A stretch of DNA of 64,000 bases, from NCBI GenBank assembly GCA_002104985.1, contig MCGO01000091.1, positions 1 to 64,000 of the forward strand, given 5' to 3'. Both the position numbers and the translations under genes were made by a program. The notes under the pieces were generated by a model that saw nothing but the letters and a program-made list of their open reading frames with translations, did no database searches and had not been told where the DNA came from. Shown here piece after piece: positions 7,343-28,800 of the stretch (position 1 is its first letter; each line of letters begins with the position of its first letter). Source of the stretch: Rhizoclosmatium globosum. Its lineage: Eukaryota; Chytridiomycota; Chytridiomycetes; Chytridiales; Chytriomycetaceae.

Positions 7343-8955
7343 ATGGGCAACTACGCTTCCCGAACAGGTGTGTAATATACCTTCTTTCCTGCCTAATTTA
7401 CAACTCAGGGAACCCCGAATTGGTTGTCACTGTGCAACCGTATAATGACAATATGGCTCGAAAGACTATCGTTCTAACTGAAACAACTGTGGATTGTCTG
7501 AGAAACAAGGTGGGTTGTCGTACCGTCTCTTCATTCACTCTGACATTCCACACTTAAGATAATTGAAGTGTTCAGAGAGGATCAAGACTCCGCCCTCCAT
7601 ATCTACTACACGATTCTCAGAAAGTCCGCCAACAACCAATCACGATATCTGCTGTCCAGAAACGCCAATCTCGTCAACATATTTAATGAAGTCGAGACCT
7701 TACTGGAAAAGCAGAAACAACTACTCTTTGAGTACAATTCATCGTTTGTTGTAGTTATCAGTTCAAAGCATTCTGCTCAACCAGATGTTATTGTTGAGCT
7801 TGAAAAAGTCGATATTGTGGCAGAGCTCAAGGAGATGGTTTGCTTATAAACTGTTTTTCACTGGCTTCTGATACTTTTGTTGTGTTAGATTGTCAAACAT
7901 TTTGGAGTTGGTTCCAATGTGCGTATCTACTATCAGAACTCAGAAACTGACACAAAGACTATCATTAAAAATGAGAAATCACTTAAACTTGGCCTGATCA
8001 ACTCGGGTCGTGTTTTTTTGAGCTGTTAGAAACCAAGACTATTCCTGATGAGATCAAGTCGTCCACTTCTACTGCTATTTCAACCCTTACCCAGCGTGAT
8101 TCCAAGTCCTACAGAGACTTGGGCTTGTTTATTTCGTACAATTGGTCTACCAAGCAAAATGTCAATGCTGTGGTGAATAAGCTCAGTGTGCTCAAGCCTG
8201 ATCTCCCTATTTGGCGTGATACCGAAAAGATGGAGTCAGATATTTATGACTCGATGGGTTCTGGCATCGCTGGTTGTCAGGCTGTAGTGGCTTGTTTCTC
8301 GTTGGGATACTTGGTAAGAACCATCTCTGTGTGCACACTTTTATTCACTGTAATTGTAACACACAGGAATCGCCAAACTGCATGCTGGAACTTGGGTTTG
8401 CCCAAGATCTCAGAAAACCCATTATTCCAGTGTTCTTCTTTGAGGAAGGGGAGGATATTACAACTCTCAGACAGAAATACAGCAAGGCTTTTTTGATTAT
8501 TGCCAGCAAGAAATATTCTGACTTCAAGAGATGGGATGCACTGGATTCCAACTGGGAAGCTGCTTTTGATATTTTTGTCAAAGAAGTGGAGTGTGCTTTA
8601 AACAAGGTTGCCCTATCTGCTGTTGTGGTCCCCAAGAGTCCTTTGGAAGTTTGGCTTGTACCCGAGTCATTTGATGCTGATTTGGAGGCTTACACTTTGG
8701 AGTATGTTCCAGGAACCTGCTTGTGGATTGTTCCTGCACTTGAAGCCTGGACCCGAACAAAAGAGCGTGTCATGTACTTGAATGGAGGTGCTGGGACAGG
8801 AAAATCTCTTATTGTCTATAGTTTGACCAAGAACTTGCCTGGTAACTTTGTCATTGGCGCCCTGTTTATTTGCCGTTACAACAATGTTCAAAAAAGTGAC
8901 CCCATTGTTCTTGTGAGTACTATTGTGAGTAGTTTGTGTCTGTCTCTTGGTGGGG
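7343..8955 (+). pseudogene. TIR-NACHT-WD40 STAND receptor, 5' part, cut by a retrotransposon
   Basis: Exons are 7343-7367, 7409-7509, 7559-7837, 7889-8313 and 8367-8955. The protein starts MGNYASR, which fits the N-myristoylation pattern (Gly2, Ser6). Residues about 10-210 look like two ubiquitin-like folds (low certainty). A TIR domain follows (GLFISYNWSTKQNVN, then about 50 residues later SPNCMLELGFA); TIR NADases keep a glutamate in this last motif and it is present. Next come a NACHT-type P-loop (YLNGGAGTGKSLIVYSL) and then the insertion. The family (STAND NTPases) senses danger or non-self and oligomerises. Two lesions are visible. A T7 run at 8013-8019 breaks the frame between GRVF and ELLETK; exon 4 is 425 nt, one short of a codon multiple. 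The LTR begins at 8956 and supplies a TAG within five bases. The 3' half resumes at 18038. Confidence 0.88.
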
Positions 8956-9280
8956 TGTAGAAGGTGGTCAAGTTTAACCACAAACCACGAGAAAATGAGT
9001 AGAGAGTTCTGATTGGTGATGGTCTAGTTGAGTATGAAGACTTCAAGTAGACTGACGCGTTATTACAGATCAAAGCTAACCGATCACCAGCTATAGTCGT
9101 TCTATCTTACGCTATAGGCCTTTTGCTCTCTGAATGATTGGTCTTTGAAACTGAATGGCTATCACTGATCGACTTGATGGTCCAGCAATTTATTCAACTT
9201 TTCAATAACGATAACTAATTCAATAAAGCTCATTCTTAACTAATGCATGCTTTGACCCTTGAACAAAATCACCCTCCACA
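8956..9280 (-). repeat. 3' LTR of the Ty3/Gypsy element
   Basis: 325 bp, matching 17713-18037 base for base as far as I can compare by eye. In element sense it starts TGTGG and ends CTACA. The Pol stop codon lies four bases outside it. An AATAAA on the plus strand lies about 60 bases before its plus-strand end. Confidence 0.95.
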
Positions 9281-9284
9281 GTTT

Positions 9285-12200
9285 TCAATCGCTCAGTGCA
9301 ACGCTGAAAGTCGTCCCTTGACTTTCCCAACAACGAACCATTAGATTTTCGAAGACATCTTGCGGAAATGCTGAAGTGATTTGATCGGGTGATAAAGGAA
9401 GGCGATCAGTCAATTCAAGTATTGGAGCAGATAAGATGGCTTTGAGGATCGGATCAGAAGACTGTTGTGTTTCAGGATTGTCTTTGTACTTGGTTCTGAG
9501 TGGTTTCGGGAAAAATACTAGTCTGTCTCCTGTCACTGGTAAACGTAGTTGTTTTCCGTCCAATTCGCGTAGTAAGTAGCTCCCTTCACGAATATCTGTG
9601 ATTACGAACGGTCCTCCGAATGTTTTCTCAAGCTTCCTACCCCATTGACGATCGAGATTTGAGTTATAGATGAGTACCCAATCTCCGACTTCTAGTGTTT
9701 GTTTACGAAAACTGCTTCGGTGTTGACGATTGAAATCAAGACTGGCTTTTAAACGAGCGGCATCAAGACGTTCAATAGCTGTTGAGACAATGTATTGCTT
9801 ATTTTCGAATTGAAGCATGCGACTATTGAGTAAGTCTTCGGTTGACATTCCATCCTTCCAACACTGAGTGAAATAAGATTCTGCTGCAAACTCAATTGAA
9901 AATGATGGTTCCTGACCAAACATGATGTGATACGGCGAAAATCCGCGATTTCCAACAGTGATACGTTTAGCAAATAATGCCGGAACAACTTTCTCTGGCC
10001 AATCACGTACTTCCGTGCAAGCTTTTGCAATTGATTTGACTAATGGTGAATGCCCTCGCTCAACTGCGAGTGCTCTGTGATTATGAGGTGAAATAGCATG
10101 AATTTGAAACCCTAATTGCTTCCCGATCTCTTTAGCTTCACTTGATGAAAACTCTGCATTATCGACAAGAACAACCATAGGAAACCCGAGTCGCATAAAC
10201 ACATCATTCACGACCCAAGTCATCATTGGTAACATCAGTTTTCGTTTGAATGAATTCCCTTCCGGCCAACCACTACATTGGTCCTCCAGATGAAACAAAT
10301 ACCGCTTCGAGTTCTTACCCACTGGCATGACAATAATATCCGCCGACCAGACCATGCAAATAGTTTGCGCTGCTCTCGACGGCTTTGCTGGTTCAACAAT
10401 TCGCTTCTGTGCATGGAATAGACAAACTTCGCATTGGTCACAGAAATCTCGAACATCCTTTTGCATCCCTTTCCAATGATATCGACTCCGTAATTTTAAA
10501 TAAGTTGGATTCCACGAATAATGACCTCCGCCAATACCTCCGTGAGCTTCTTCCATCAATTTAACTTGAACATCTCGCTTACCAACAACTCTCCTAGGAA
10601 CATCACCTTCGGTCTCGCCTCTTCGATACAAATATCCGTTAAGTAAGAAATAGTCGGATGCCATCTCACGAGTACGGCGCTTTTGAAGATCTGAGACACC
10701 ATCTTTAAACGTACACGTTTCAAGCCACTGAACAATATCACTCATACGTTCATCGGATTCGAATTCAGATGTCTCGGCGAGAAAAATATTGGAGGCTTGA
10801 GTTGAACTGTGTGATTCTTGGAACATGTCTAACATGGCATCGATGGCATTTTCGACGTCTTCTGATTCATTTTGACCGTCGGCATGTGGCGGTGGTTTGC
10901 TGAACATCCTTGACACTCCGTCTGGAACACTGTGCTTCTTCCCTGGAACAACAACGAATTCAATTGGAAACGTATTGGCATAAATCACCCAACGCAACAT
11001 TGTACGATCGGCGATGGCTGGATTGTTAACTAAGCCCTTCAATCCTGTTGAATCAATTTCTACAATCAAACGAGGAACTCCATCGATCAAGAAATAAATC
11101 CGACGAAGGTTACGAACTAAAGCACATAACTCGAGCTTAATCTGGGAATATTTTCGTTCTGCTGCATTAAATAAACCTGACATCAACTGAATCAGATAAC
11201 GTTTCCCATTCTCATCTAATTGACACAACGATGCTCCTTCTCCCACTGTGTAAGCGTCGCAACTCAAAATAGGAGGTCGATTTTGGAGATCCGAAACGTC
11301 AAGATTGCGTCGAATTGGGTATGACTTCAGTGCGGCTTTCAAGTCTTCAAAAGCTTCAATCTGCGCTTGACCCCATTCCCATTGCTGCCCTTTGCGATAC
11401 AAAAAGAATAGAGGAAATGCTCTAACTGAAAACATAGGGATCCAGGACCTCCATACTGCGACTGTTTGCAAGAATGAGCGTAACTCACTCACTCCGGTCG
11501 GCTCTTTCCACTTGTCGATTGCATCTAATTTCTTAGGATTAGGCTCCCTTCCGTTCTGAGACAGAATGACACCAAGAGATAATATTTTCGGAACAAAGAG
11601 TTGGATTTTGTGTTTCCCACCGTGAATCGTGAGACCCGTTACTATTAATTTCTTGAGGATAGTTTCAAGCTTCTCCATGTGCTCAATGAAAAAGTTTCTA
11701 ACACCTGGATACTCTTTTGAGATAGTCATATCAGGTGGTTTACCGGAAAACACTAGAATGTCGTCGACGAACACTTCCGCCTCGCCTTCTTTGTGGAATA
11801 TCATACTCGAAACTCGCTGCGCGTTTGCTGGTGAATTGGTCCAACCCTGCGGTAAGCCAGTGATGCGCATCAATCCAATAGGTGTACGAATGGCAGTAAG
11901 ATCACGGTCACGTTCGTCGATTGGTATTTGATCGAAGAAGCTGATGCAGTCCACGCCAGAATAGATGTAAAATCCGGCGGCTCGGGCTGTCGATGCGTCC
12001 ATATTTGGTGGAATGCCCGAATCTCGTATAGTGACTTTGTTCAATATCTGAAGGTCTTGTATGAACCGGATACTCCCATCTTTCTTTGCGACAACAAACC
12101 AAGGTGATGCGTATGCGCCTATACTTGGTTCCATAACACCTTTTGCTAACTTTTCACGTAGAAATTCGAGTAACTTCTCGTAGTGGGCCATAGGAACCGG

Positions 12201-14384
12201 ACGTTCACGAACTTGCCATGGCTTATGAGGAACTGTGTTGATTCGAACTGGATCAAATAACCCTTCCTTTAGACGTCCACGTTCCGCCAAATCAAATGCA
12301 AACGCGTCGTCATATGGTTGAATCCGAGACTTTGCGTACTCAATTTCAGCTTCATTGATAAATCCCGGAAACTGCTCACGGGTGTACTTGAATAAATCTT
12401 CCATACGTTCTGGAGTCAATCTGCGCTCGTTCATAGGTTTCAATCTCGGCGGTGGACATAGATTTTGCATCTCCGTGCGCCACTTGTTTGGCTTGACTGA
12501 CGGCGGCAACTGAGTGTCAACTGGTCTAACCTTCTTATCCACAGTCTTTGCTTTGGTGAAACAACGTGCAACATTCTCTTCTGAGTCAAGATCCACTTCC
12601 GAGACAAAGTTCAAGTACGCATGATTCAAAAGAACTTCCTCCTTTCCGGTCAAGACATCTCCCATTAGTTTTCGCTCAACGAGATCAACGAGGTCATAAT
12701 TGCTGAGCTTCTTATACTCGGCACTAGCTGCGACTGTTGAAAACCCAAAAACTCGTTCGTCACTTCCAAGCTTCAACTTTGTATGTAAGTCCTTCTTTGA
12801 TCCATCCGCGTTGTAGAAGTTATCAATAGGATTAACGCTTATTTTGAAGGAGAAAGCTGTATGTTCTTGCGATTGGAAGTAATTTGATTCGAGTGTATCC
12901 AGCATTTTGATTGTCGCTTGCGGCATAGGGTGAGTATCATTACTATTTAGATTCGAAGGAGAACTCGCCTGAGGAGGAGCGCCTGCACAGACGGCGTTGT
13001 CTGGGGTATGAGAACCCATCGAGCAAGAGGGAGTTGCTAGAGCTACATGACTGGATCCCCCCGTCTCGACTGCAGGACTTGGTGATACATTTAATTCGAT
13101 CTCCTCAACGATAGGTTTCAAGACAGGTTCCCACGTGGGCCTCATAAAGACATCGTGAGTATCAATTTCTATTGGAATAAAAGGAGTACTCGCCTGAGGA
13201 GGGGCGCCTGCACAGACGGCGTTGTCTGGGGTGTAAGAACCCGTTGAGCAAGAGGGAGTAACTAGAGCTACAAGACTGGATCCCTCCGTCTCAACTGCAG
13301 GACTTTCGATGCTTTCAATGTCCCCCTCGAAGCTTTGACTGATTTTGTAGACTTCTTCTTGATCTGAAAGCATTAAAGCCGTGATTGATGATAGCACTGC
13401 TTCAACATCGTGCGACGCGACAAATATAGAATGATTTTGATGTTCAAGCACGTCCGCTAATACCTCCGAATCGTCGTCCTCGTCGTACATTTCTGATAAA
13501 TCCACGAAATTCAATAAATTCGGAACGAACAGATCGGAGACATAGTCGGATAAGTCAAAAGTAGTAATAACTGGAACGTGGTCTGAACCGTCAATCTCGT
13601 ATCCATGTCGGCTAGAAATAGGTAGTAAATTACGACTGCTGTGAATTCCATCGTATCGCATCCCAAGATTTCCTCTGCGGTTGTGATAAAACCAGGTAGT
13701 ATATTTCCCTGGTGAGTACGGATTGCAATAACGAAAAGAGTCGACCATAAGTTGCGATAAGGCCTTAGCCCAGTCGCGTTCAACTTCGCGAAACCCTGAG
13801 CTAATTAACGGAATGACGTCTTTGTGAATATCCAAGTATGATTCTGAAACGTTGAAGTCGGCACCAGTGATAATAGTGAGACCAAGCTGCTGTAGTTCGT
13901 CCATGCGGTAATAAAATGCGTTTTGAAACTTGTATTTGTAATCCAAACGATGGTCGTTGTTACGGCTGGCGTTCGGAAAATATCCGCACACTAAAACAAG
14001 AGAGTCAAAGTGAACTTCAATGTAACGGCCTTCCATGTCGGTGATATCCCATCCAGGAAACGTGTAAACTTCCTGGGTAGGTCCAAGTTGAAATATAGAT
14101 TGTCTGACAAGGATAGCGACTCCGTTTGATCCAAGGCCGCGTCCCATAATTTCATGTGGGTAGTCTGAGTAGTACGTGTCATGTGTGTCGAAAATTTCGT
14201 ATTCCTTTATGTTCAAGTTGTTGTAGATCTCTTCAAACGATCGTCGGCCAGTACGCGTCTCCTGCAAGAATAAAATATCTGCGGCTGCGAACGTGGTTTT
14301 GGCTGACGTAGACATCTTAGAGAACGCGTTACGAGTTGAGTTCTGGTTCCAAGACCAGACAGTGATATTGTTGAGATCAACCAT
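9285..14384 (-). CDS. pol: Pol polyprotein: APE-like endonuclease + RT + RNase H + integrase
   Basis: 1,699 codons without a stop. Residues 1-275 form an endonuclease/exonuclease/phosphatase domain: WSWNQNS (Asn), ILFLQETR (Glu), CGYFPN, GADFNVS (Asp/Asn), RYDGIH and GSDHVPV (Asp-His), i.e. every hallmark of exonuclease III/APE nucleases. A Ser/Pro/Ala linker (275-640) carries an internal 118-bp duplication. Reverse transcriptase spans about 690-930 (LPQGWTNSPANAQRV, FVDDILVF at about 871). RNase H begins near 1038 (LSCDAYTVGEG). An HHCC zinc finger lies near 1280, followed by the integrase core with Asp at about 1346 and 1406 and Glu near 1441, then a GPF-type module (EKTFGGPFVITDI) near 1600. 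The family makes cDNA in cytoplasmic particles and integrates it in the nucleus. The frame is the same as the protease ORF but separated by a stop and 258 nt; the start is the first ATG before the endonuclease, and the open frame extends upstream to about 14590. Confidence 0.93.
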   Translation of the reverse strand: MVDLNNITVWSWNQNSTRNAFSKMSTSAKTTFAAADILFLQETRTGRRSFEEIYNNLNIKEYEIFDTHDTYYSDYPHEIMGRGLGSNGVAILVRQSIFQLGPTQEVYTFPGWDITDMEGRYIEVHFDSLVLVCGYFPNASRNNDHRLDYKYKFQNAFYYRMDELQQLGLTIITGADFNVSESYLDIHKDVIPLISSGFREVERDWAKALSQLMVDSFRYCNPYSPGKYTTWFYHNRRGNLGMRYDGIHSSRNLLPISSRHGYEIDGSDHVPVITTFDLSDYVSDLFVPNLLNFVDLSEMYDEDDDSEVLADVLEHQNHSIFVASHDVEAVLSSITALMLSDQEEVYKISQSFEGDIESIESPAVETEGSSLVALVTPSCSTGSYTPDNAVCAGAPPQASTPFIPIEIDTHDVFMRPTWEPVLKPIVEEIELNVSPSPAVETGGSSHVALATPSCSMGSHTPDNAVCAGAPPQASSPSNLNSNDTHPMPQATIKMLDTLESNYFQSQEHTAFSFKISVNPIDNFYNADGSKKDLHTKLKLGSDERVFGFSTVAASAEYKKLSNYDLVDLVERKLMGDVLTGKEEVLLNHAYLNFVSEVDLDSEENVARCFTKAKTVDKKVRPVDTQLPPSVKPNKWRTEMQNLCPPPRLKPMNERRLTPERMEDLFKYTREQFPGFINEAEIEYAKSRIQPYDDAFAFDLAERGRLKEGLFDPVRINTVPHKPWQVRERPVPMAHYEKLLEFLREKLAKGVMEPSIGAYASPWFVVAKKDGSIRFIQDLQILNKVTIRDSGIPPNMDASTARAAGFYIYSGVDCISFFDQIPIDERDRDLTAIRTPIGLMRITGLPQGWTNSPANAQRVSSMIFHKEGEAEVFVDDILVFSGKPPDMTISKEYPGVRNFFIEHMEKLETILKKLIVTGLTIHGGKHKIQLFVPKILSLGVILSQNGREPNPKKLDAIDKWKEPTGVSELRSFLQTVAVWRSWIPMFSVRAFPLFFLYRKGQQWEWGQAQIEAFEDLKAALKSYPIRRNLDVSDLQNRPPILSCDAYTVGEGASLCQLDENGKRYLIQLMSGLFNAAERKYSQIKLELCALVRNLRRIYFLIDGVPRLIVEIDSTGLKGLVNNPAIADRTMLRWVIYANTFPIEFVVVPGKKHSVPDGVSRMFSKPPPHADGQNESEDVENAIDAMLDMFQESHSSTQASNIFLAETSEFESDERMSDIVQWLETCTFKDGVSDLQKRRTREMASDYFLLNGYLYRRGETEGDVPRRVVGKRDVQVKLMEEAHGGIGGGHYSWNPTYLKLRSRYHWKGMQKDVRDFCDQCEVCLFHAQKRIVEPAKPSRAAQTICMVWSADIIVMPVGKNSKRYLFHLEDQCSGWPEGNSFKRKLMLPMMTWVVNDVFMRLGFPMVVLVDNAEFSSSEAKEIGKQLGFQIHAISPHNHRALAVERGHSPLVKSIAKACTEVRDWPEKVVPALFAKRITVGNRGFSPYHIMFGQEPSFSIEFAAESYFTQCWKDGMSTEDLLNSRMLQFENKQYIVSTAIERLDAARLKASLDFNRQHRSSFRKQTLEVGDWVLIYNSNLDRQWGRKLEKTFGGPFVITDIREGSYLLRELDGKQLRLPVTGDRLVFFPKPLRTKYKDNPETQQSSDPILKAILSAPILELTDRLPLSPDQITSAFPQDVFENLMVRCWESQGTTFSVALSD
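12963..13305 (-). repeat. 118-bp direct duplication inside the Pol linker
   Basis: Two diverged copies at 12963-13080 and 13188-13305, offset 225 bp, keep the reading frame. Both encode a block with SPAVET.GSS..AL.TPSCS followed by TPDNAVCAGAPPQAS. They lie between the endonuclease and the reverse transcriptase. Confidence 0.85.
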
Positions 14385-14642: not shown

Positions 14643-16529
14643 TTAGCGTGGCCAGTCTGGGATGACAAGCATGTCCTCAGCCTCCTGTGGTTCAGTGCGT
14701 TGTGGCTCAAGAATGTTGCGGTCGCTGGAATAACTGACAGTTTGATACTGAACACTGACAGAACCATCCTGAGAAGTAATCTTGGTCCACATATTGCCAC
14801 GATTATCCCAAGTAGAAGTGGCTTTGGTTGCTGCAACAAATGGCATTCCGAATAAAAGAGCAAATGGTGTTTTGACTCCCGCTGGACATATCCACGATTT
14901 CTGCCGAAGATTGATTCCACCATTGAGACCATACAAAGAGTCACGAATTAGACCATACATACGATCCCTACCACCTCCAGCGTGAAGCATAATGATCATT
15001 GCTCCTGTATCAATAGCACTGATGTTGGATGCGTCTCGAGCAAGATTGAAACTGAGGGCATTCATTTCAGATCCTTTATCCATAAGAACAATTTCAACAA
15101 CGAATTCCTTTTGGAATGTGACGTTGTAGAATCTTGGCGATGCAAACGTGGAATACTGGAGGGTGCGATCAAATGGGACTTCTGGCTCTTCAATGGCTGC
15201 GATCTTGAAAGAACCCGCGGTGAAACTAGAGATTGGCTTGTACCCTTCGATTGCACCGTGCCAAGACTGAGCGGTAAGATTACACAAATTCCCAAAAATG
15301 CGGTCAAGAGCGCTTTGGCCTCCCTCCTGTCGAGCGACCCAGTCGGTATTGAACTGCAACAATTGGATGACTCCCGTTGGCACGTTGTCGAGAGTTCCTG
15401 TGTCCATAAGCTTGCGCTGGATGAGTTGACAATCTGCTGTTGGCGTCTGGATGGTAGAAGTCATAACGGGCTCGTCGGATAGGACCTCGTGCGGAATCTT
15501 GTGAACTTTGAGATTATCCAACGAGAATTTCTGGACGGCTGGTGACAAAGCAAACAACTCGGCAAGAGTCATTGTGACAGTAGTACCTTGGAACACACGT
15601 TCACACACAAGCTTGGAATCAATGTTGGCAAGAATTCCTTTATGAGCGAAATGATACTTCTGAGCTGGCTTTGGGGATGGTTTTGGGTCGGCTAGTGGAA
15701 CTGGGGTCTTCATGGCTGTTGGAGTGATTGGTCGTTTCGGTGTGGGAGGTCGAACTGGTGGTGGATTTGGCGGCATAGCTGGATTCTGGAAACCTGGTGG
15801 CAATGGATTTGGAACGTTGAGTGGAACTGTGACTGGAACTGGCGTTGGAATGACTGGAACTGGCGTTGGAATGACATTCTGGAACGGCGCTTGTGGCATC
15901 TTGGCGTCACGAGTAGGCTGAACACGTTTCGGCGGCGGCTGCTTCGGATTCGAGTCAGTTTCTTCGAGCGCGCGTTTCGCAAAGACGTCGGCTTCGTCTT
16001 CGTTGGATCTGCTGCGAAGGTAGGAGACTTCTTCCGCGATTTGCTGACATGTGAAGAAACAGTCCTCTGAATTTTCGACTTCCTGAAGTAACGACGACCA
16101 GGCACAATCGGCTTCGGCATAACTGATGTCGCTCCCGCTCACAAGCTTCATAACTTCCTCGACTGGTCTGTAGCTCCCACTCTTGACTTCCAGAAATTTT
16201 GCGTCGTTGCCTTCAAACTCCAATGGATTAAATAAGACGTGCATAAGTTCGAATAGCAAGGCTCCCTCGCTGGACTGAGACGTAACTGTTGAATCCGACA
16301 TCATGAGAGTTTTGCTGCTACCAGATTGACCCTTCTTGGCTTGCTCTTCCTTCAGTTTCGCACTCATAAACGCTTCCCATCCGCCTTTACCGCGCATATC
16401 CGGAATCTGCTGACCACGTTCGGTACCATCGTCGAGACCACGAGTTTCTTTTCGAGACCGGCGCGGTTGATGAACGTGATTTCTTTCAATGGGTAGCCTT
16501 TCTTCTTCATTTGGTCGTAGATGTCGCAC
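14643..16529 (-). CDS. Retroelement second ORF with retropepsin-like protease domain
   Basis: 628 codons, overlapping the end of the Gag ORF by about 166 bases in the -1 frame. The N-terminal half is low complexity, with a Pro-rich segment (VIPTPVPVIPTPVPV and PPNPPPVRPPTP). The C-terminal third looks like the divergent aspartic protease of fungal Gypsy-type elements: VVEIVLMDKGSEMNALS (D-x-G-S type), an IDTGAMIIM segment, and LLFGMPF resembling the usual LLGRPF ending. The expected role is processing of Gag and Pol in particles. Expression probably needs ribosomal frameshifting from Gag, though I see no canonical slippery heptamer. The active-site triplet has Lys where Ser or Thr is usual, so activity is uncertain. 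Confidence 0.7.
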   Translation of the reverse strand: MRHLRPNEEERLPIERNHVHQPRRSRKETRGLDDGTERGQQIPDMRGKGGWEAFMSAKLKEEQAKKGQSGSSKTLMMSDSTVTSQSSEGALLFELMHVLFNPLEFEGNDAKFLEVKSGSYRPVEEVMKLVSGSDISYAEADCAWSSLLQEVENSEDCFFTCQQIAEEVSYLRSRSNEDEADVFAKRALEETDSNPKQPPPKRVQPTRDAKMPQAPFQNVIPTPVPVIPTPVPVTVPLNVPNPLPPGFQNPAMPPNPPPVRPPTPKRPITPTAMKTPVPLADPKPSPKPAQKYHFAHKGILANIDSKLVCERVFQGTTVTMTLAELFALSPAVQKFSLDNLKVHKIPHEVLSDEPVMTSTIQTPTADCQLIQRKLMDTGTLDNVPTGVIQLLQFNTDWVARQEGGQSALDRIFGNLCNLTAQSWHGAIEGYKPISSFTAGSFKIAAIEEPEVPFDRTLQYSTFASPRFYNVTFQKEFVVEIVLMDKGSEMNALSFNLARDASNISAIDTGAMIIMLHAGGGRDRMYGLIRDSLYGLNGGINLRQKSWICPAGVKTPFALLFGMPFVAATKATSTWDNRGNMWTKITSQDGSVSVQYQTVSYSSDRNILEPQRTEPQEAEDMLVIPDWPR

Positions 16530-17680: not shown

Positions 17681-17700
17681 CGCGTCCACCAATCTCCTTA

Positions 17701-17711
17701 TTTGGGTGCCA
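17701..17711 (-). promoter_or_regulatory. Putative tRNA primer-binding site
   Basis: One base downstream of the 5' LTR in element sense the strand reads TGGCACCCAAA. A TGG start is expected for pairing with the CCA end of a tRNA. I could not assign the tRNA species. Confidence 0.6.
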
Positions 17712-17712
17712 C

Positions 17713-18037
17713 TGTAGAAGGTGGTCAAGTTTAACCACAAACCACGAGAAAATGAGTAGAGAGTTCTGATTGGTGATGGTCTAGTTGAGTATGAAGACTT
17801 CAAGTAGACTGACGCGTTATTACAGATCAAAGCTAACCGATCACCAGCTATAGTCGTTCTATCTTACGCTATAGGCCTTTTGCTCTCTGAATGATTGGTC
17901 TTTGAAACTGAATGGCTATCACTGATCGACTTGATGGTCCAGCAATTTATTCAACTTTTCAATAACGATAACTAATTCAATAAAGCTCATTCTTAACTAA
18001 TGCATGCTTTGACCCTTGAACAAAATCACCCTCCACA
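17713..18037 (-). repeat. 5' LTR of the Ty3/Gypsy element
   Basis: 325 bp, same sequence as 8956-9280. In element orientation this is the promoter-bearing LTR. Its outer end touches the GGGG target duplication and the host exon. Confidence 0.95.
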
Positions 18038-21000
18038 GGGGCCTACAAGCAGTATGTGGAAGCAGAGATGGAGGAAGATCAAGCTCGTGTCAAAGACAAA
18101 AAACAAAGTCTTCTCAAAACTCCAGTTGACGCGTTCAAGGTGTTGGTGGTGGATGGTTTGAAAAAGTTGTCAGTCCCAGAATGGAAAACCAAAACTCTGT
18201 TGATTGTCATTGATGCCTTGGACGAACTCAACAAGGATACACGCCATTCTGTCCTGAAGATTTTGACAACACTGTGTCCCGAGCTCCCAGGCTTTGTCAA
18301 GATTGTCACAACAGGTCGTCCAGAACGCGACATTTACTATGCATTGCAAGGACTTAGCCCTTTTGTTTTGAGTCCCAGTGACAACAACAATGCAGCCGAT
18401 TTAAAAGTGTTTGTCAAGTACCGACTACAGGCTTTGTGGGGGGCAATTCAGCAAGGCACTGATGCAGAGAAGTGTTGTGAAGCTCTGGTGGAAAAGGCAG
18501 ATGGTCTTTTTATCTATGCTCGTAACGTCTGTGAATATATCAAGAAACAGAATTTGGAGCCCAAGCAATCTCTTGTTGATATACTAGCTCTTACGTCTGG
18601 ATCAGATAGTATTTATAGAGCCATTATTGAGCGTGAACTTCAAACCAACAGAGCAGAGAGACTGGCTCATTTCAAGTGCGTGTTTTCTGTTTTGTTCACT
18701 GCCCAAAGACCTTTGACCTTGGGGAGCTTAGCCAATATTGGCGGATTGGACATTCATGAAGTTGAATCTGTGGTTTCAGAGGTATTTACTTGTTGATGGC
18801 CATATCTTGGACTGACAGTTCTTAGTTCCGCTCAATCCTCAAAATTGAACATGGAGGGATTGTCTCTGCTATTCACAAGAGTGTGAAGGATTTTTTCACA
18901 GACTTCACTCGTTGTGGAGGAGAATTGTTTATCCAAGCTGTAGATGCCAGGATTGCTGTTTGTTGTCTCCAGATTTTGATTGGCAATTTGAGTCACAATA
19001 TGGCACATCTAGACCCCACAAAGTTTTACAGCAAAGATGAGCTGGCACAACTAACAGTTTTGAACGAAGATTTGCTGTATGCTGTATTGTTTTGGGCCTC
19101 TCACTTCAAACTTGGCTTCTCAAAGGCTTCAGTGGTTGATCAACAGGCAATCATCAAGTTACTGTACAAATTTTGTACCAAAACCCTCCCTTACTACCTT
19201 GAGGCACTTCTATTAGTTTCCAAATTGAATGATGTCTTTCCAATGGTTCACTCTGTTTCTGACATATTGTCTGGTTTCACTCACATAGAGGAAGTCAAGA
19301 CAGTGCTATCGTTGCTGAATGATCTGAAATTTGTGGCTGTCAATTTCCGTACCCAATTATTGGCAAGTCCACTCCAAGTCTACAACCATGCCTTAATCGC
19401 AGTGCCTCTAGAAACCAAGTATTACTGTCTGTTTCAGGGTCTTGCACCTGCCCGCATAACTATTGGTGCAGAAAAAGAGTGGAGTCCTTTCACACTTCTT
19501 GGCCACTCCAATAATGTGCGTTCAGTGGCATTCTCTCCTGACTCCCATACTGTGGTTTCTGGTTCAAGTGACAATACAGTCAAATTATGGTCAGTGGAAA
19601 CTGGGGAATGTGTCAAGACCCTTCTTGGGCATTCTGGCTGGGTGAATTCAGTGGCATTCTCACCTGACTCTAAGACTGTGGTTGCTGGATCAGCTGACAA
19701 GACAGTCAAATTGTGGTCTGTGGAAACTGGAGAATGTGTCAAGACCTTTGTTGGGCATTCTAGCAGTGTGGTTTCAGCGACATTCTCGCCTGACTCCAAA
19801 TTTGTGGTTTCTGGATCAGTTGACAAGACAGTCAAATTGTGGTCAGTGGAAACTGGAGAATGTGTCAAGACTCTTGTTGGGCATTCTGGCTGGGTGTTTT
19901 CAGTGGCATTCTCTCCTAACTCCAAGACTGTGGTTTCTGGATCAGCAGACAAGACAGTCAAATTGTGGTCTGTGGAAACTGGAGAATGTGTCAAGACCTT
20001 TGTTGGAAATGCTAGCAGGGTGATTTCAGTGGCATTCTCACCTGACTCCAAATTTGTGGTTTCTGGATCAGATGACAAGACAGTCAAATTGTGGTCAGTG
20101 GAAACTGGGGAACTCTCCAAGACTCTTGTTGGGCATTCTGGCTGGGTGTTTTCAGTGGCATTCTCTCCTAACTCCAAGACTGTGGTTTCTGGATCAGCAG
20201 ACAAGACTGTCAAATTGTGGTGTGTGGAAACTGGAGAATGTGTCAAGACCTTTGTTGGAAATGCTAGCAGGGTGAATTCAGTGGCATTCTCGCCTGACTC
20301 CAAATTTGTGGTTTCTGGATCAGATGACAAGACAGTCAAATTGTGGTCTGTAGATATAAGGGGACTCTCCAAGGCACTTAAAGGGCATTCTGAAGGAGTA
20401 AGGTCTGTGGCATTCTCACCTGACTCCATATTTGTGGTTTCTGGATCAAGTGACAATACAGTCAAATTATGGTCAGTGGAAACTGGGGAATGTGTCAAGA
20501 CCCTTGTTGGGCATTCTGGCTGGGTGAATTCAGTGGCATTCTCGCCTGACTCCAAGACTGTGGTTTCTGGCTCAGCAGACAAGACAATCAAATTGTGGTC
20601 TGTGGAAACTGGGGAACTCTTCAAGACCCTTGTTGGACATTCCAATAGTGTGACATCAGTGTCATTCTCACCTGACAGCAACACTGTGGTTTCTGGATCA
20701 GATGACAAGACAGTCAAATTGTGGTCCGTTGAAACTGGGGAATGCTCCAAGACCCTTGTTGGGCATACTTTATTTGTGAATTCAGTGGCATTCTCACCTG
20801 ACTCCATATTTGTGGTTTCTGGATCACGTGACAATACAGTCAAATTGTGGTTCGTGGAAACCGGGGAACTCTCCAAGACCCTTAAAGGGCATTCTGAAGG
20901 AGTAAAGTCAGTTACATTCTTGCCTGACAGCAAAACTGTGGTTTCTGGATCAGTTGACATGACAGTCAAATTATGGTCTGTGGAAACTGGGGAATGTCTT

Positions 21001-21192
21001 GAAACACGTGATTGGGATGGAAGCGATCTTAGAGACACATTCTTTCCCTCAGAGTTGACTGTTCAGGATGGTTGGATATGCCTTGACAAGATACTGTTGT
21101 ACTTCATTGGCCGAAGTATTAATGAATTTTCAGAGTCATCTGTTTCTTGGCACATGGCAAACAATGTATTTTGCCTTGCTCTCAGAAATTAG
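18038..21192 (+). pseudogene. TIR-NACHT-WD40 STAND receptor, 3' part
   Basis: Host exons 18038-18781 and 18826-21192. The frame continues that of the 5' part: codon GGG at 8952, then G at 8955 joined to CC at 18042, gives an uninterrupted codon. It starts AYKQYVEAEMEEDQ and carries the Walker B motif TLLIVIDALDELN, an RPERD sensor-like motif and a winged-helix-like region. A helical segment is followed by twelve WD40 repeats and a short tail ending VFCLALRN. With the 5' half the protein would be roughly 1,500 residues. As sequenced, no single transcript reads through without crossing 9 kb of transposon, so this allele is expected to be null unless the insert is spliced out. Confidence 0.88.
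19492..21003 (+). repeat. Twelve near-identical 126-bp WD40-coding repeats
   Basis: 1,512 bp made of exactly twelve 42-codon units, each resembling LVGHSGWV-SVAFSPDSKTVV followed by SGSADKTVKLWSVETGE. Unit pairs 4-5 and 6-7 are almost the same, and units 1-2 resemble 8-9, which points to recent two-repeat duplications. Differences concentrate just after GH and around the D-K/N-T position, as in NLR-type fungal WD40 arrays under diversifying exchange. Confidence 0.92.
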
Positions 21193-22808: not shown

Positions 22809-25800
22809 TCACATTTTACAACGCGAGAGACTTCCATCAGCACCACAGGTATAAACTCGGTTGCCATTCACTGAAATCTGCATCACTCCATAAGAAGACA
22901 TTCCCCCAGACTTCTCTGAATGCCCTGGGAACTTTCCATGCCGAGATAGCGCAGCATCATCAGAGCTCCAGTTATCGTTATTAAACATACTCAAGTCCCA
23001 GACTTTGATGTCTCCTCCTGCTGCTCCAGAAATCAACAACCCATTTTCTTCATCCACAAATAACGACTTGACAGTTGTGTCATGTGCTTTGAATGTCTTT
23101 CGATGCTTCATCTGTCTCACGTCAAAGATAACTAAATCTTTTTGTCAGAAACATACCACCAAATCATATGACAGGACTTACATATATCACCCTTCTTGCC
23201 TCCCGCAACAATTGATTGATACTTGTTTGTATGTGCAATAGAATAAGCTCCTCCTTCCGTCACATGGAAGCTCTTAACGCGTGTCTTATGGTATGGCAAC
23301 AATGTATCAAACAAACAAATGTTACTAGTGAGAAATGGTGGTTAAAATATGCTGTTAACCAACTGAAACAGCTAAACCTTCCATTCGACGATACACCAGC
23401 AGTCGCAATCAAAGACGACGAATTGATGAAAGCAAAGTCATTGGTTATGGCAGAATTGCATTGCAGAATTTGTGTAGGATTGAGTGACTGCTGCGTTGCA
23501 TCAAACTTCCACAATCGAAGTTCTCCCTTCGCATCGCTACATCCGAAACGTCCTCCAAAAGGATCAAAACGACATTTCGTGATCCGCGCACTAGTTCCAC
23601 TTGAGTACGAAACAAGGTCACCCTTTTGACCAAACTGGTATAATTTCACAATTGCTTCTGAGTTGCCATCGCCCACTCCAGCCAAATCTGAGCACAAAAG
23701 AGGATTAATTCGGACTGAATAGCCTAAGACTTTAGCTTACAATAATTTAGAGACGGATGAGCCTCAAGTGAAGACACAGCCAGGACTTCACGATGAACAC
23801 GTCGACCACTATCCAACTCAGAGTCTATAAGTTGAAAAAAGTAAGCCAAAAAATTCCTTGAAGTGACAATATACCTCTTCTTCGTAAGTCCATCATAGAG
23901 TCCTTAACTGCTTTTTGCAGAGAGTCGAAACTCAATGTTCTCTTCAAAGTCTCAGTTTCGACCAGCCGTTGGGGTTGGTTCTTTGGAGCGTCCAAGAATC
24001 GTTTGTGGGTCGATTTAATAGCCAAATCGTCAACCGATTCACGTCGCTTCGCAAGCACTTCGTCGCGCTAATGATATTATTAAGTTAACCTGGTTTGGAC
24101 ATACGGAGAGCCTTACTGAATGGAACCGAATAGACGTTTCCAGGTCAAATTCGACAATAGTCTCATGCGTGGCAACCGCAAACATATTGGGATCCATTGG
24201 GTTGATGGCAAATGTGCCTATAATATCTTTTGTACGGAATACAACTTCATAGCTGCTTTCGTCATATATTTGTATGGCGCGTTTTGTAGGACTTTCAGCT
24301 TCGGGTGTTTGAACAATATCCTCAGTGATAGGCTTGACTGCAGCAGCTTCGTTTTGATTCTCTTCCGTTGACTTTTCATTGTTTCCAGATATGATTAATG
24401 CGGCTAGCTTTTTGACGTTGGCTGTTCGTTTGATTAGGGACCAAACACCCTTGGCATAGTTGTTCAAAAGATATGTCGACATTTTCGCTGCACGCAGAAG
24501 ATTAATGAGAAGTAAAGCCATTATCTACTTACAAATCTTGAGTTTCATTGCGGTATTCCATTTCGATCGAACTTGCTGGTGCATTTCAAACAGCATAGCG
24601 GACAGTCGCGTCAAAACGACTTCCGACAAGAATCCATACGCTTCATCCACATTTCCGCCGTCTTTCAAATGGCGAACAAAGACTTGAAAGTCAAGACCGA
24701 TGTGTTGAAGCGCAATAGAAGATAGAAGCGTTTCAGCGAGAAGCGCCTTTTCGGCAGAGACTTCTCCATAATAATCATCGTCCGAATCATCTTCACTTTC
24801 TGAATCGGGTTGAATCTGAAAGAAAATTCAGCCAACCGGTCAAATATGCAAATAAATTCTCACAATAGGCTCTCGATGTGTCAGTAAGTCCAGAATTAAT
24901 GGCTTGAGGTTCTTCTTTTTCGCACCACCAACGAGGACTTCAAAAAATCGGTCGCTAAGTCCAACAATCCACCATAGTGACTTGAAGTCCTTCGTTTTGA
25001 TGGAACAGATAGAAAGCGCAAGGAAAGCAGTCGCAGCAGTTTGTGACATAACTGAGAGACTGATTGGACTAAAGCCAGAGTCTTCCCTCTCATACCATCG
25101 AATAATTGACCACAGTAGGCGCCTTTCGTTGATTAACATTCAATAAATTAGCTGCAGACATTAAACGAAACTTACTTCGAAAAATCTACGATGGGGTCCA
25201 CAGTTGTAGCATCGACGCGAGTAACACTGATAAATATTAAACTGGAAAGATGATTGGATCCCTCTATCAGTAAAGCGGAAAACCCAGTTGCAGTTCGATC
25301 ATTGGAAGCGAAACTGGGCAGCTCAACAAACGCCACAAAGGCATCCATTTCTTGGTAACGAGCCGTGATGGCAGAATCCATAATTTGAAGTGGCATCTCG
25401 ACACGATCCGCCAGCTTTTGGATACCACTTTGAAGAAGTTTGAAGTAATCCTTGAACACGGAATCCACAGTCAAGACATCCATGTTCAACGAGACGACAG
25501 CCATAGATTTGTACAATGAATGAATCATGCGAATCGCCAGTTTCCACTTTTGATAACGAATAGATTCACGGATTGATCCCACTTTGACTTTTTGTGTTTC
25601 ATTTAGCACGATTTCTACGGCAACTTCAACGGCTTCTTCAGCAGGCTGAGTCTTCCCACCATTCGCCTTCAATTCTGCGGCCGCAAGCTCGCGTTCTAGA
25701 AGTTCAAGCTCATCAGGCTCCTCATCCGCATTTTGTATCGATTTCTTGAATGCTTCATATTCATCCATAGAATCGGCAGGTTTTCTCTGTACAGGTTCGC

Positions 25801-28800
25801 CCCAATCCATACCCAATGATGATTGTTGGGCGACTGGCGCTCCCCAATCCATTCCTCCAGAAGGTACTTGCTGACTGACGGGTGCTCCCCAATCCATACC
25901 ACCGCTAGACGGTTGCTGACTGACAGGAGCACCCCAGTCCATGCCACCAGAGATTGGTTGTTGACTTACTGGAGCACCCCAATCCATGGTGCTCGATGCA
26001 GGTTTCTGACTTACGGGTGCTCCCCAGTCCATGGCACTGGATGTTGGTTGCTGACTGACAGGAGCTCCCCAGTCCATTGTGTTCGACGTTTGCTGTTGGC
26101 TCACAGGAGCACCCCAGTCAATAGCTGCATTTGTGCTGTTCGAATCAGTTGGGACAGCAGCTGAAGAATCAGTTTTAGTCGAAGTGGATTCGGCTTGTGG
26201 GGAGCTTTCAACAATAGCAGCTGCTGTAAGTTCTGAGACTTTTGTCAACATATCCAAGGCAAGGCCAGGACATCCCATGTTCTCATAAATAGTAGCACTG
26301 GCTGACATGAAGTGAAATTGTTGTAAAGCCGGGATTTTTTCAATGTGGAAGTTCTTTTGCAGGCGGTACTTCTTTTGCAAGTAGTTGTGAAGAACAACCA
26401 ACGGCGGATCAATAATATCTCTTTCTGGAAGAGACTCAGCGGCATCAGCGAAAGTATTAATTGGCATCTAACGTTTGAAACTATCAGTTCGTGTCACAAA
26501 TAGTCGGCTCCATACCATCGTCGATTTCAACGCCAGATCCTTATCTTTCAACAGAGTGTAAACCATACTAATGAGATACCGATCTCCCTCTTTGAAAGCC
26601 ACAGGTAGAATGTTGGTTTTCAGGGTTTCATCTAATGTTGGGCTTTCATCTCCTTCAAACAAACGACACAGCACAATGGCCAACTGAAGGTCCTTCAAGT
26701 GTTTCAAACACACATTCACGGCGTCTTTGAGTCGATCGGCGAGCAAGAAGAACGCGACAGCATATTCTAGCAGACACTTAAGGTCAGTGCACATCATGAA
26801 GTGGGACAAGTTACCATATCGTTGTTTTCCTAACAACGCGAACGCATTCTTCACAGCTGCCTTTTGCCATCGCTCTTCCGCAAAATCATTTGCCAAGAAC
26901 TTAAGCATCGCACCTTGTTCTGGATGAGAGGACGCAAGTTTCCACAAACCCAACAACACGTTCTTTTTCTTCAGGCAGATGTAAAACAGAGCACAGTCAA
27001 CAGGATCTTTGTCTTCTTTAGCCATATAGTGATTACGTGCGATAGCCTCGATTTGACGACGCTGATGGGGTGGTTAGGTCATGATACGAATAGTAAGCGT
27101 CAACCAACCAAAGCTTCAGTGTTCTTCAGCCAAAATCCCATTCCGAGTGATCGCACATCTTTCCATAGCGGTTTGCCTGAGAATATTTGTGACACAAAGT
27201 CAACCAAAAAGTCCTGTGAAGACATCAGCACCAACCACCAGCTAGGAAATCGCATACCTGTGAATCTGAATAGAACGCCCAAGAAATGTCTCTTGATCCC
27301 AAACAAACTGCATCTGAAACGCGCTCAGTAGCCACAAACAATCTCGCAAAAAACACGAATCGACTTCCGTTTTCATCGACACTCCGTTTCTGTTGCTCCA
27401 CTTGCACAAACGAACTCATAATAGCCAATAACCGTGCTTGATCCCCTTCTTCCAAGTGAGGTAATTTCAGTTTATACCCCATTTCCACCAAGAAATCTAA
27501 ATGTGCCTGGCCGAAACTTCCAATCTCTCGCGAGGTAGTTTCTTCGCCCACTTCAGCAAACAATTCATCGTAATTTGCACCCGTGGAATCTGCACTTCCT
27601 TCCTGTTCGAAGAACTTCCAGAGCACAGCCGGAACTTCACGCATCTTTCGGTCCGCGTCCGTCATCAATTTGACAAACTTGTGCACGAGAGAGAAAATGT
27701 ACTTAATAAAGTCGTATTTTCCCCAAATCAAGTGATGTACGAGGAGATTGGGGTGGTAATCAGGAAGGCGCCCATTGATTCGGGATACTACAGAGTGTAA
27801 ACTCGTAGGAACAGGTGGATCAGTTGTGGTGGAGTCGATGATAGTCAAGTCTTTCCATTTACTGAACACGGCAACTTTGGTGGTCAATGCGGCTGCCAGA
27901 GATCCGTTCTGAAGCCACATAATTGCATGCACTCTGTCCTCCCTGAGTTTATGTCAGAGACCATAGATCAAGTAAGTATACAATACTTACCAAGGAACAG
28001 TCATTTCAGCGATATGAATCCACTCTATATTCCCATTAAATGTCTTCAACCTGTCTTGACAAAATACATCTACACCAGATTGAGTCGCGACAGCAACGAG
28101 ACTTTGTCCATCCGTAGAAGCTGCAATATCCACATCAACTATTTCAGATGTCCATACTTTACTCCACGCTTTGATGTGTTCGGAATCCTCTATCCGTCCT
28201 TGCCAAATACTCAACTCCCATTCACCGTCATTCATTTTCCGGCTGCTGACAATGCGACCGAATAAGTCAGCCTTGACGGAAACGATTTCATCTCCGAGCA
28301 ACAAAGTTCCGGCTTCTACAAATTCAATTGTCCGATTTTCAAGTTCTAATCCCCATAATCGGCACACGCCCTGTCCATCCACTGTTCCAAACGTATGTGT
28401 CCCAATATGCGCTACAGGAGAAAATACAGCCGACAGCGTGTTGGTCGGGAAGGTCAGCTTTACAGGTTTTGTCCCAGTCGGAAGGCTAGACTCAAACAGT
28501 AACTGATTCGAAATATAACGAGAGCCTGAATTTATGTTTGTCAAAACTAGCGGTAAAGGGACTGAAAGGAAAATCATCTTCACCTTCAAAAACGACCTCC
28601 CAAACGTAAACCGAAAGATCTTCGTTTGACACACCAATCACCAAATACGATATAGTTGAATCAGTGTCAAGCGCGAAATGGTGAATGACTTGCAAAAACG
28701 TTATTGGACATAGCGGCGTGACTTGCTGTAACTCCGTGAGTTCTGGATCGTTCCCGACTGCAACGATCGTCTGCAGAGACACTTTGGATCCATCGCAAAT

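Follow-up and report, generated by a model that had tools for sequence, protein, structure and literature searches.

A predicted exonuclease III/APE1-type nuclease domain in the Pol proteins of Ty3/Gypsy elements from the chytrid Rhizoclosmatium globosum

What might a nuclease do at the start of the Pol protein of a long terminal repeat (LTR) retrotransposon that also encodes an integrase? This question is raised by a Ty3/Gypsy element in 64,000 nucleotides of Rhizoclosmatium globosum DNA (positions 1 to 64,000 of contig MCGO01000091.1, assembly GCA_002104985.1), hereafter the window. An earlier note, made from the letters alone, had described its Pol as an EEP nuclease fused to reverse transcriptase (RT), RNase H and integrase. 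We report here that such fusions prevail among the Gypsy integrases of this genome, that the nuclease is by score of the exonuclease III/APE1 type, and that it probably serves the element's own cDNA. Labels beginning with L, C and P denote loci, contigs and database proteins, respectively.

A nuclease domain in the Pol frame

The Pol open reading frame (ORF) lies where the earlier note had placed it, on the minus strand as we now add, and comprises 1699 stop-free codons, the full open frame having 1766. Pfam profiles confirmed that the frame, that of an LTR element, joins an EEP nuclease to a Pol whose RT-RNase H-integrase part is otherwise typical (Table 1), with Exo_endo_phos matching residues 11-269 (E=2.7e-11), and the six active-site motifs named in that note were all found in the frame. 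Residues of RT, RNase H, H2C2 and the DDE core are likewise present; among solved structures the RT region is closest to Ty3 (7q5b, 4ol8), and the integrase profile rve matches residues 1345-1435 at E=2.3e-5 and 25 bits, below its own 32.6-bit Pfam cut-off. A second genome place, on another contig, is 100% identical to the window nuclease over the domain, and further families carry the same nuclease at 37-43% identity, within long Pol frames where these were scanned, so that the fusion goes beyond chance. A second copy of the window family (L044, C368:92001-102000; 98.9% over 6.7 kb) adjoins a partial inverted copy.

The domain had been likened to the endonucleases of long interspersed nuclear elements (LINEs), an assignment that the scores overturn. 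The window domain reached 116.3 bits against the NCBIfam model xth (TIGR00633; cut-off 99.05), and its best solved-structure matches were ExoIII and APE1, in keeping with a predicted exonuclease III/APE1-family fold. The 50 PDB matches listed include no L1 endonuclease, which by itself does not decide the assignment. Its best cellular match scored 69.7 bits versus 12.0 bits for the best LINE match, and no LINE endonuclease was matched up to E=1. All 13 Gypsy domains compared showed the same preference (best cellular 51.1-105.5 bits, best LINE 3.6-22.2 bits), whereas a LINE-type ORF of the same genome (L049) matched L1 endonuclease first. By score, the window domain is of the exonuclease III/APE1 type and not of the LINE type. 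The element shares with APE-type LINE proteins, such as L1, an EEP-fold nuclease within an RT-bearing retroelement protein, but the subfamily differs by score, and the window element has LTRs and a DDE integrase. A LINE origin of the domain was rejected on the scores, the EEP tree alone being indecisive.

The catalytic residues are widely kept. In APE1 numbering, E96, Y171, D210, N212, D283, D308 and H309 are found in all 13 Gypsy domains and N68 in the 12 that are readable there, the window domain having all eight; W267 is also kept in 13/13. The Gypsy domains resemble cellular exonuclease III/APE1 enzymes (xth) in predicted fold and in this catalytic set, but differ from them in being fused to Pol and in having, without exception, Thr for Phe266 (aromatic in the five cellular rows shown) and Lys for Arg185 (Lys also in one of the five). 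Trp280 is kept in the six domains of group II and in none of the seven of group I (M, A or F, with Phe in three), these being the two groups of the EEP tree below. The aromatic abasic pocket (F266, W280), which marks strict AP endonucleases like APE1 within the family rather than the family as a whole, is not kept in the window domain, which has T and M at those positions. Synonymous sites were saturated in 26 of the 29 domain comparisons, yet nonsynonymous divergence (dN) of the EEP fell to 0.107 for L028/L032 and 0.201 for L025/L026, so that the protein is held by selection.

Distribution and origin of the fusion

The genome (56.9 Mb in 420 contigs) was scanned with the xth model; the repeat counts are lower bounds and refer to places rather than working elements, since one element may be split over several places and there are broken copies. 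The model matched 67 places (35 above the cut-off), and 48 of the 60 H2C2 places and 50 of the 66 RNase H places had an xth place on their own strand no more than 6 kb away. The fusion is no single oddity but the majority state among the Gypsy integrase places found in this genome, in two alternative positions. Of the 67 places, 42 lie in the RNase H-integrase interval and seven before RNase H, at the N-terminus of Pol in the window family and two others; three have just an integrase nearby, one just an RNase H at a distance, and the remaining 14 have neither. Three of the latter were inspected, and proved to be LINE-like with an EEP ORF followed by an RVT_1 ORF (L049), an EEP without a detected RT (L050), and an inverted fragment of the window family (L011).

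The domain orders in Pfam were EEP-RT-RNase H-H2C2 in L041, L043, L044 and the database protein P0001, RT-RNase H-EEP-H2C2 in L039, L040, L042 and L045, and, as far as the frames examined extend, RNase H-EEP-H2C2 with a partial RT in L026, L028 and L032; in L024 and L025 the order was RT-RNase H-EEP. The Pfam rve core was undetected in L039, L040, L042 and L044; the three catalytic positions of the integrase are visible by alignment in L039, L040 and L042. No relict second EEP was found in the RNase H-integrase spacer of the window element, L041, L043 or P0001. L041 has a pair of LTRs (388 bp, one mismatch), as do L039 on C383 (483 bp, identical, outside the first 10-kb stretch) and L026 on C130 (about 1,370 bp, 99.3%), and none was found within the first 10-kb stretches of L040, L042 and L044. 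The target duplications GGGG, ACGC and GTAA flank three group I elements, the window element and two relatives; they measure 4 bp if the LTR runs from TG to CA, and 3 bp if it also includes the base next to TG that the two copies have in common. Beside the internal-EEP element of L042, a 528-aa ORF (8415-9998, minus strand) has a weak Exo_endo_phos match (E=0.003).

Among database proteins, the N-terminal layout of the window recurs in two ENA entries without a name, P0001 and P0004, the only ones in which a profile search of 122 database proteins, some possibly incomplete, found a Gypsy EEP. The protein searches found one relative, a group II domain query returned only PolA-xth fusions, and an RT-RNase H-EEP query from L039 gave 189 database matches, of which 120 were listed. 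P0002 and P0003, with an exonuclease III domain fused to DNA polymerase I domains, are another polymerase-ExoIII fusion. As the earlier note had supposed, no description of a Gypsy family bearing such a domain, be it called EEP or exonuclease III, was found in the literature searched, which consisted of titles and abstract starts, with most subscription journals and Repbase outside its scope; papers are cited here from excerpts, and those of PMC3248453, PMC10799480, PMC9926174, PMC5911963, PMC5890265 and PMC9289625 mention no EEP in a Gypsy element. Exo_endo_phos is tied to LINEs in the excerpt of PMC10799480, and apurinic endonuclease domains are reported for chytrid LINEs in that of PMC9926174. 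Annotation that equates EEP plus RT with a LINE could misfile elements such as those described here.

An RT-RNase H tree of 36 rows, with which a 15-row tree agrees, grouped the window element with L041, P0001, P0004 and L043, all with an N-terminal EEP (100/99), next to an internal-EEP group of L039, L040 and L042 (100/100). These eight form a clade (89/89) inside a 25-row radiation (100/100), whose 17 other rows, among them Riccia, Tilletia and Rhodofomes, are without an EEP in the sequences compared. The other EEP lineage (L024, L032, L045) is placed elsewhere (100/100), and L043 and L047 have long branches. By these RT trees, the nuclease occurs in two Gypsy lineages that are separate from each other. 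L043 (C146), which probably has relatives on C347 and C411, combines an N-terminal EEP bearing the complete catalytic set with a very divergent RT (LQDD).

The EEP tree has 39 rows, including 18 of the 35 xth loci from prokaryote contigs, and was rooted on LINE rows that do not themselves fall on one side of a branch; L083 and L085, which branched apart, were dropped from the score comparison, and a viral scan gave four loci. This phylogeny, which the earlier note had proposed, resolved group I (seven rows, 99/99) and group II (six rows, 100/100) each as a single clade, but left LINE versus cellular origin unsettled by the tree alone: the Gypsy domains fall outside the clade of 19 cellular rows and, without the LINE rooting, between the LINE and the cellular rows. 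Within group I, the internal-EEP rows form one clade (100/99), unlike the N-terminal rows, of which L043 is the first to branch. Both trees require a single slot change within group I, the domain being able to switch between the two Pol positions with its catalytic residues kept. The internal slot is common to group II, and the early branching of L043 (93/88 for the rest of group I) would favour an N-terminal start there. On a single versus a double capture of the domain, the evidence points both ways. A single origin is favoured by one clade of groups I and II, supported at only 67/59, and by the shared T266 and K185, whereas two captures or a transfer are favoured by all 13 domains having a higher-scoring match in a cellular enzyme than in the other Gypsy group, and by the EEP-less lineages that separate the groups in the RT tree.

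Possible roles of the nuclease

We consider it probable, on these comparisons of sequence, that an exonuclease III/APE1-family nuclease has been captured at the start of Pol and is active on the element's own cDNA. Working next to RT and RNase H, the domain would trim or proofread cDNA 3' ends or open abasic or damaged ends, and clean linear cDNA would then reach the DDE integrase, which would carry out integration itself. Such a role is suggested by the two Pol positions, both of which adjoin RT-RNase H, by the internal slot, which is that of the lentiviral dUTPase, and by the loss of Phe266, which recalls the APE1 mutant F266A. This mutant is a faster 3'-mismatch exonuclease, by about 20-fold (burst) to 50-fold (steady state), and W280A has mixed effects, the burst being about halved and the steady state raised about fivefold; the excerpt also says that the abasic pocket varies among ExoIII family members (PMC5785985). 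For group I, 3'-end cleaning or proofreading would be our first choice, with abasic-site repair a close second, and for group II, where W280 is kept, abasic-site repair perhaps ranks first. In a more speculative form, which we regard as rather doubtful, the ExoIII/APE1 domain with its pocket widened by Thr for Phe266 might act as built-in proofreading, removing mismatched or blocked 3' ends while tethered to RT-RNase H, and two lineages may have taken it up into the same Pol slot independently of each other. Reverse transcriptases are not known to proofread, and LTR elements are thought to depend on the host for cDNA repair. Gypsy lineages with an ExoIII-type nuclease of their own next to RT-RNase H make the editing or repair by a retroelement of its own DNA copy directly testable.

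Parallels exist for such additions. The dUTPase of non-primate lentiviruses is likewise an extra enzyme for the quality of the DNA copy between RNase H and integrase (PMC4531489), but it is a nucleotide hydrolase and not a nuclease. KnitGypsy-Dnmt3 (PMC5890265) and an orchid Gypsy with AlkB (PMC9289625), as excerpted, also show a Gypsy lineage in which a cellular enzyme has become fixed, but a methyltransferase and an RNA demethylase, respectively. The Gypsy Pol P0118 has a SET domain between RNase H and H2C2, in the same slot as the internal EEP, and two chromodomain Gypsy proteins have a dUTPase, which precedes the protease in P0091 and separates protease from RT in P0106. The RNase H-integrase junction thus appears as a slot for extra enzymes, namely the lentiviral dUTPase, the SET domain of P0118 and the ExoIII domain here.

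Several observations weigh against the cDNA role. EEP dN exceeded RT-RNase H dN in seven of the nine pairs with both domains (0.201 versus 0.075 for L025/L026, 0.685 versus 0.315 for the window and L041) and was about equal to it in L032/L045 and L028/L045, and the close pair L031/L036 has a dN/dS of 0.49. The xth cut-off is passed by 35 of the 67 places, the L041 domain scoring 68.7 bits, and no target duplication was found at C130 (group II), the fourth element with both LTRs read. Thr at position 266 is likened here to an Ala mutant, and since W280 is also changed in group I and W280A has mixed effects, the substrate preference cannot be read from the sequence. Finally, nicking of abasic cDNA could also destroy it; a paper cited in PMC2427051 reports, by its title, that AP endonuclease is involved in the degradation of edited HIV-1 DNA.

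Among other explanations, the narrower one that overlaps with the cDNA role, in which the domain mainly repairs abasic sites left by uracil removal from cDNA, is a realistic possibility, although on the doubtful side. It would agree with the ExoIII/APE1 family membership, with an inner position equal to that of the lentiviral dUTPase, with the dUTPases of P0091 and P0106, and with the W280 of the abasic pocket in all six group II domains; the loss of F266 in 13/13 and the change of W280 in 7/7 of group I speak against a strict abasic pocket in the group to which the window element belongs. Since the RNA strand of RNA/DNA hybrids is a substrate of some ExoIII-family enzymes, the domain might be a second RNase H-like or 3'-RNA nuclease for primer removal or for degrading host or genomic RNA, but this is unlikely, as the RNase H of the Pol itself has its acidic residues in place.

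In LINEs, EEP nucleases nick the target for integration, and an EEP N-terminal to RT resembles the LINE order; APE-RT order is also described for non-LTR TRE elements (excerpt of PMC5911963). A LINE-like, target-primed second integration route, which the earlier note had offered as a second entry route, is nevertheless quite improbable, as it fits poorly with an ExoIII/APE1-like domain, with a position after RNase H at 42 places and before RT at seven, with the complete, precisely ended LTRs and short target duplications of three elements, and with the intact integrase residues of the window. We give still less weight to an attack on host or rival DNA or to a non-catalytic DNA-binding or targeting module, since nothing observed ties the domain to host DNA and the full catalytic set is kept in divergent families. 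An artefact, be it a nested LINE piece as the earlier note had envisaged, a chimeric assembly or a chance open frame, has a negligible chance, because the domain occurs in the same order in a second Pol, located on another contig, as well as in several divergent families and in two database proteins, and the nested fragment is excluded by their common Pol frame.

The element and its insertion site

The cDNA role preferred above would concern an intact-looking Ty3/Gypsy element inserted in a host gene, with identical 326-bp LTRs (an exact repeat), both ending in TG..CA (Table 1). Ty3 itself makes a target duplication of 5 bp. The window element shares with Ty3/Gypsy elements (Metaviridae) the LTRs, a Gag-like ORF and the RT-RNase H-H2C2-DDE integrase order, but it has the extra exonuclease III-type Pol domain, and the target duplication is 4 bp (or 3 bp) in the three elements. 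Once the element and one GGGG were removed in silico, the host frame was uninterrupted, which, together with the identical LTRs, points to a clean and recent insertion. ORF1 and ORF2 overlap in different frames at 16364-16529, where a frameshift or a mutation may be involved, and a single long ORF lies upstream of Pol in L041 and L043. We take the IDTGA of ORF2 to be an aspartic protease-like motif.

Table 1. Positions of the element's parts and of neighbouring features in the window
Feature	Position	Strand	Remarks
Pol ORF, 1699 aa	9285..14384	-	Order EEP, linker, RT, RNase H, H2C2, integrase
Predicted exonuclease III/APE1-type nuclease domain	13530..14384	-	Pol residues 1-285
Duplicated 151-bp stretch in EEP-RT linker	12930..13305	-	Copies 12930-13080 and 13155-13305, 86%
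Reverse transcriptase	11565..12089	-	RVT_1 residues 766-940, E=1.2e-16; FVDD at 872-875
RNase H	10980..11375	-	Residues 1004-1135; RT_RNaseH_2 1004-1102, E=2.3e-15; acidic residues aligned, presumably catalytic
Integrase H2C2 zinc-binding domain	10419..10571	-	Integrase_H2C2 residues 1272-1322, E=1.6e-14
Integrase catalytic core	10050..10352	-	D1349, D1408, E1442
ORF2, 628 aa	14643..16529	-	IDTGA at residues 506-510, another DTG at 376; no Pfam match
ORF1, Gag-like, 408 aa	16364..17590	-	Weak Retrotrans_gag match, E=0.06, below cut-off
Candidate primer binding site TGGCACCCAAATAAGG	17696..17711	-	One base past 5' LTR, starts TGG; no tRNA matched
5' LTR	17713..18038	-	Exact 326-bp repeat
3' LTR	8956..9281	-	Exact 326-bp repeat; final repeat base (G on plus strand) LTR or internal
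Target-site duplication GGGG	left 8952..8955, right 18038-18041		Flanks read; 3 bp if shared G 18038 belongs to LTR
Interrupted host gene, 5' part	8274..8955	+	Open frame across flanks; NACHT-type by reading; resumes at 18042
Interrupted host gene, 3' continuation	18042..18796	+	Open frame across flanks
WD40-like ORF after host gene	18883-21192		12 repeats, 126-bp spacing, 61-100% alike; name by reading

Elsewhere in the window, an ORF at 25172-26467 contains six 75-bp copies spaced by 45 bp (25823-26122), which give MDWGAPV-type protein repeats.
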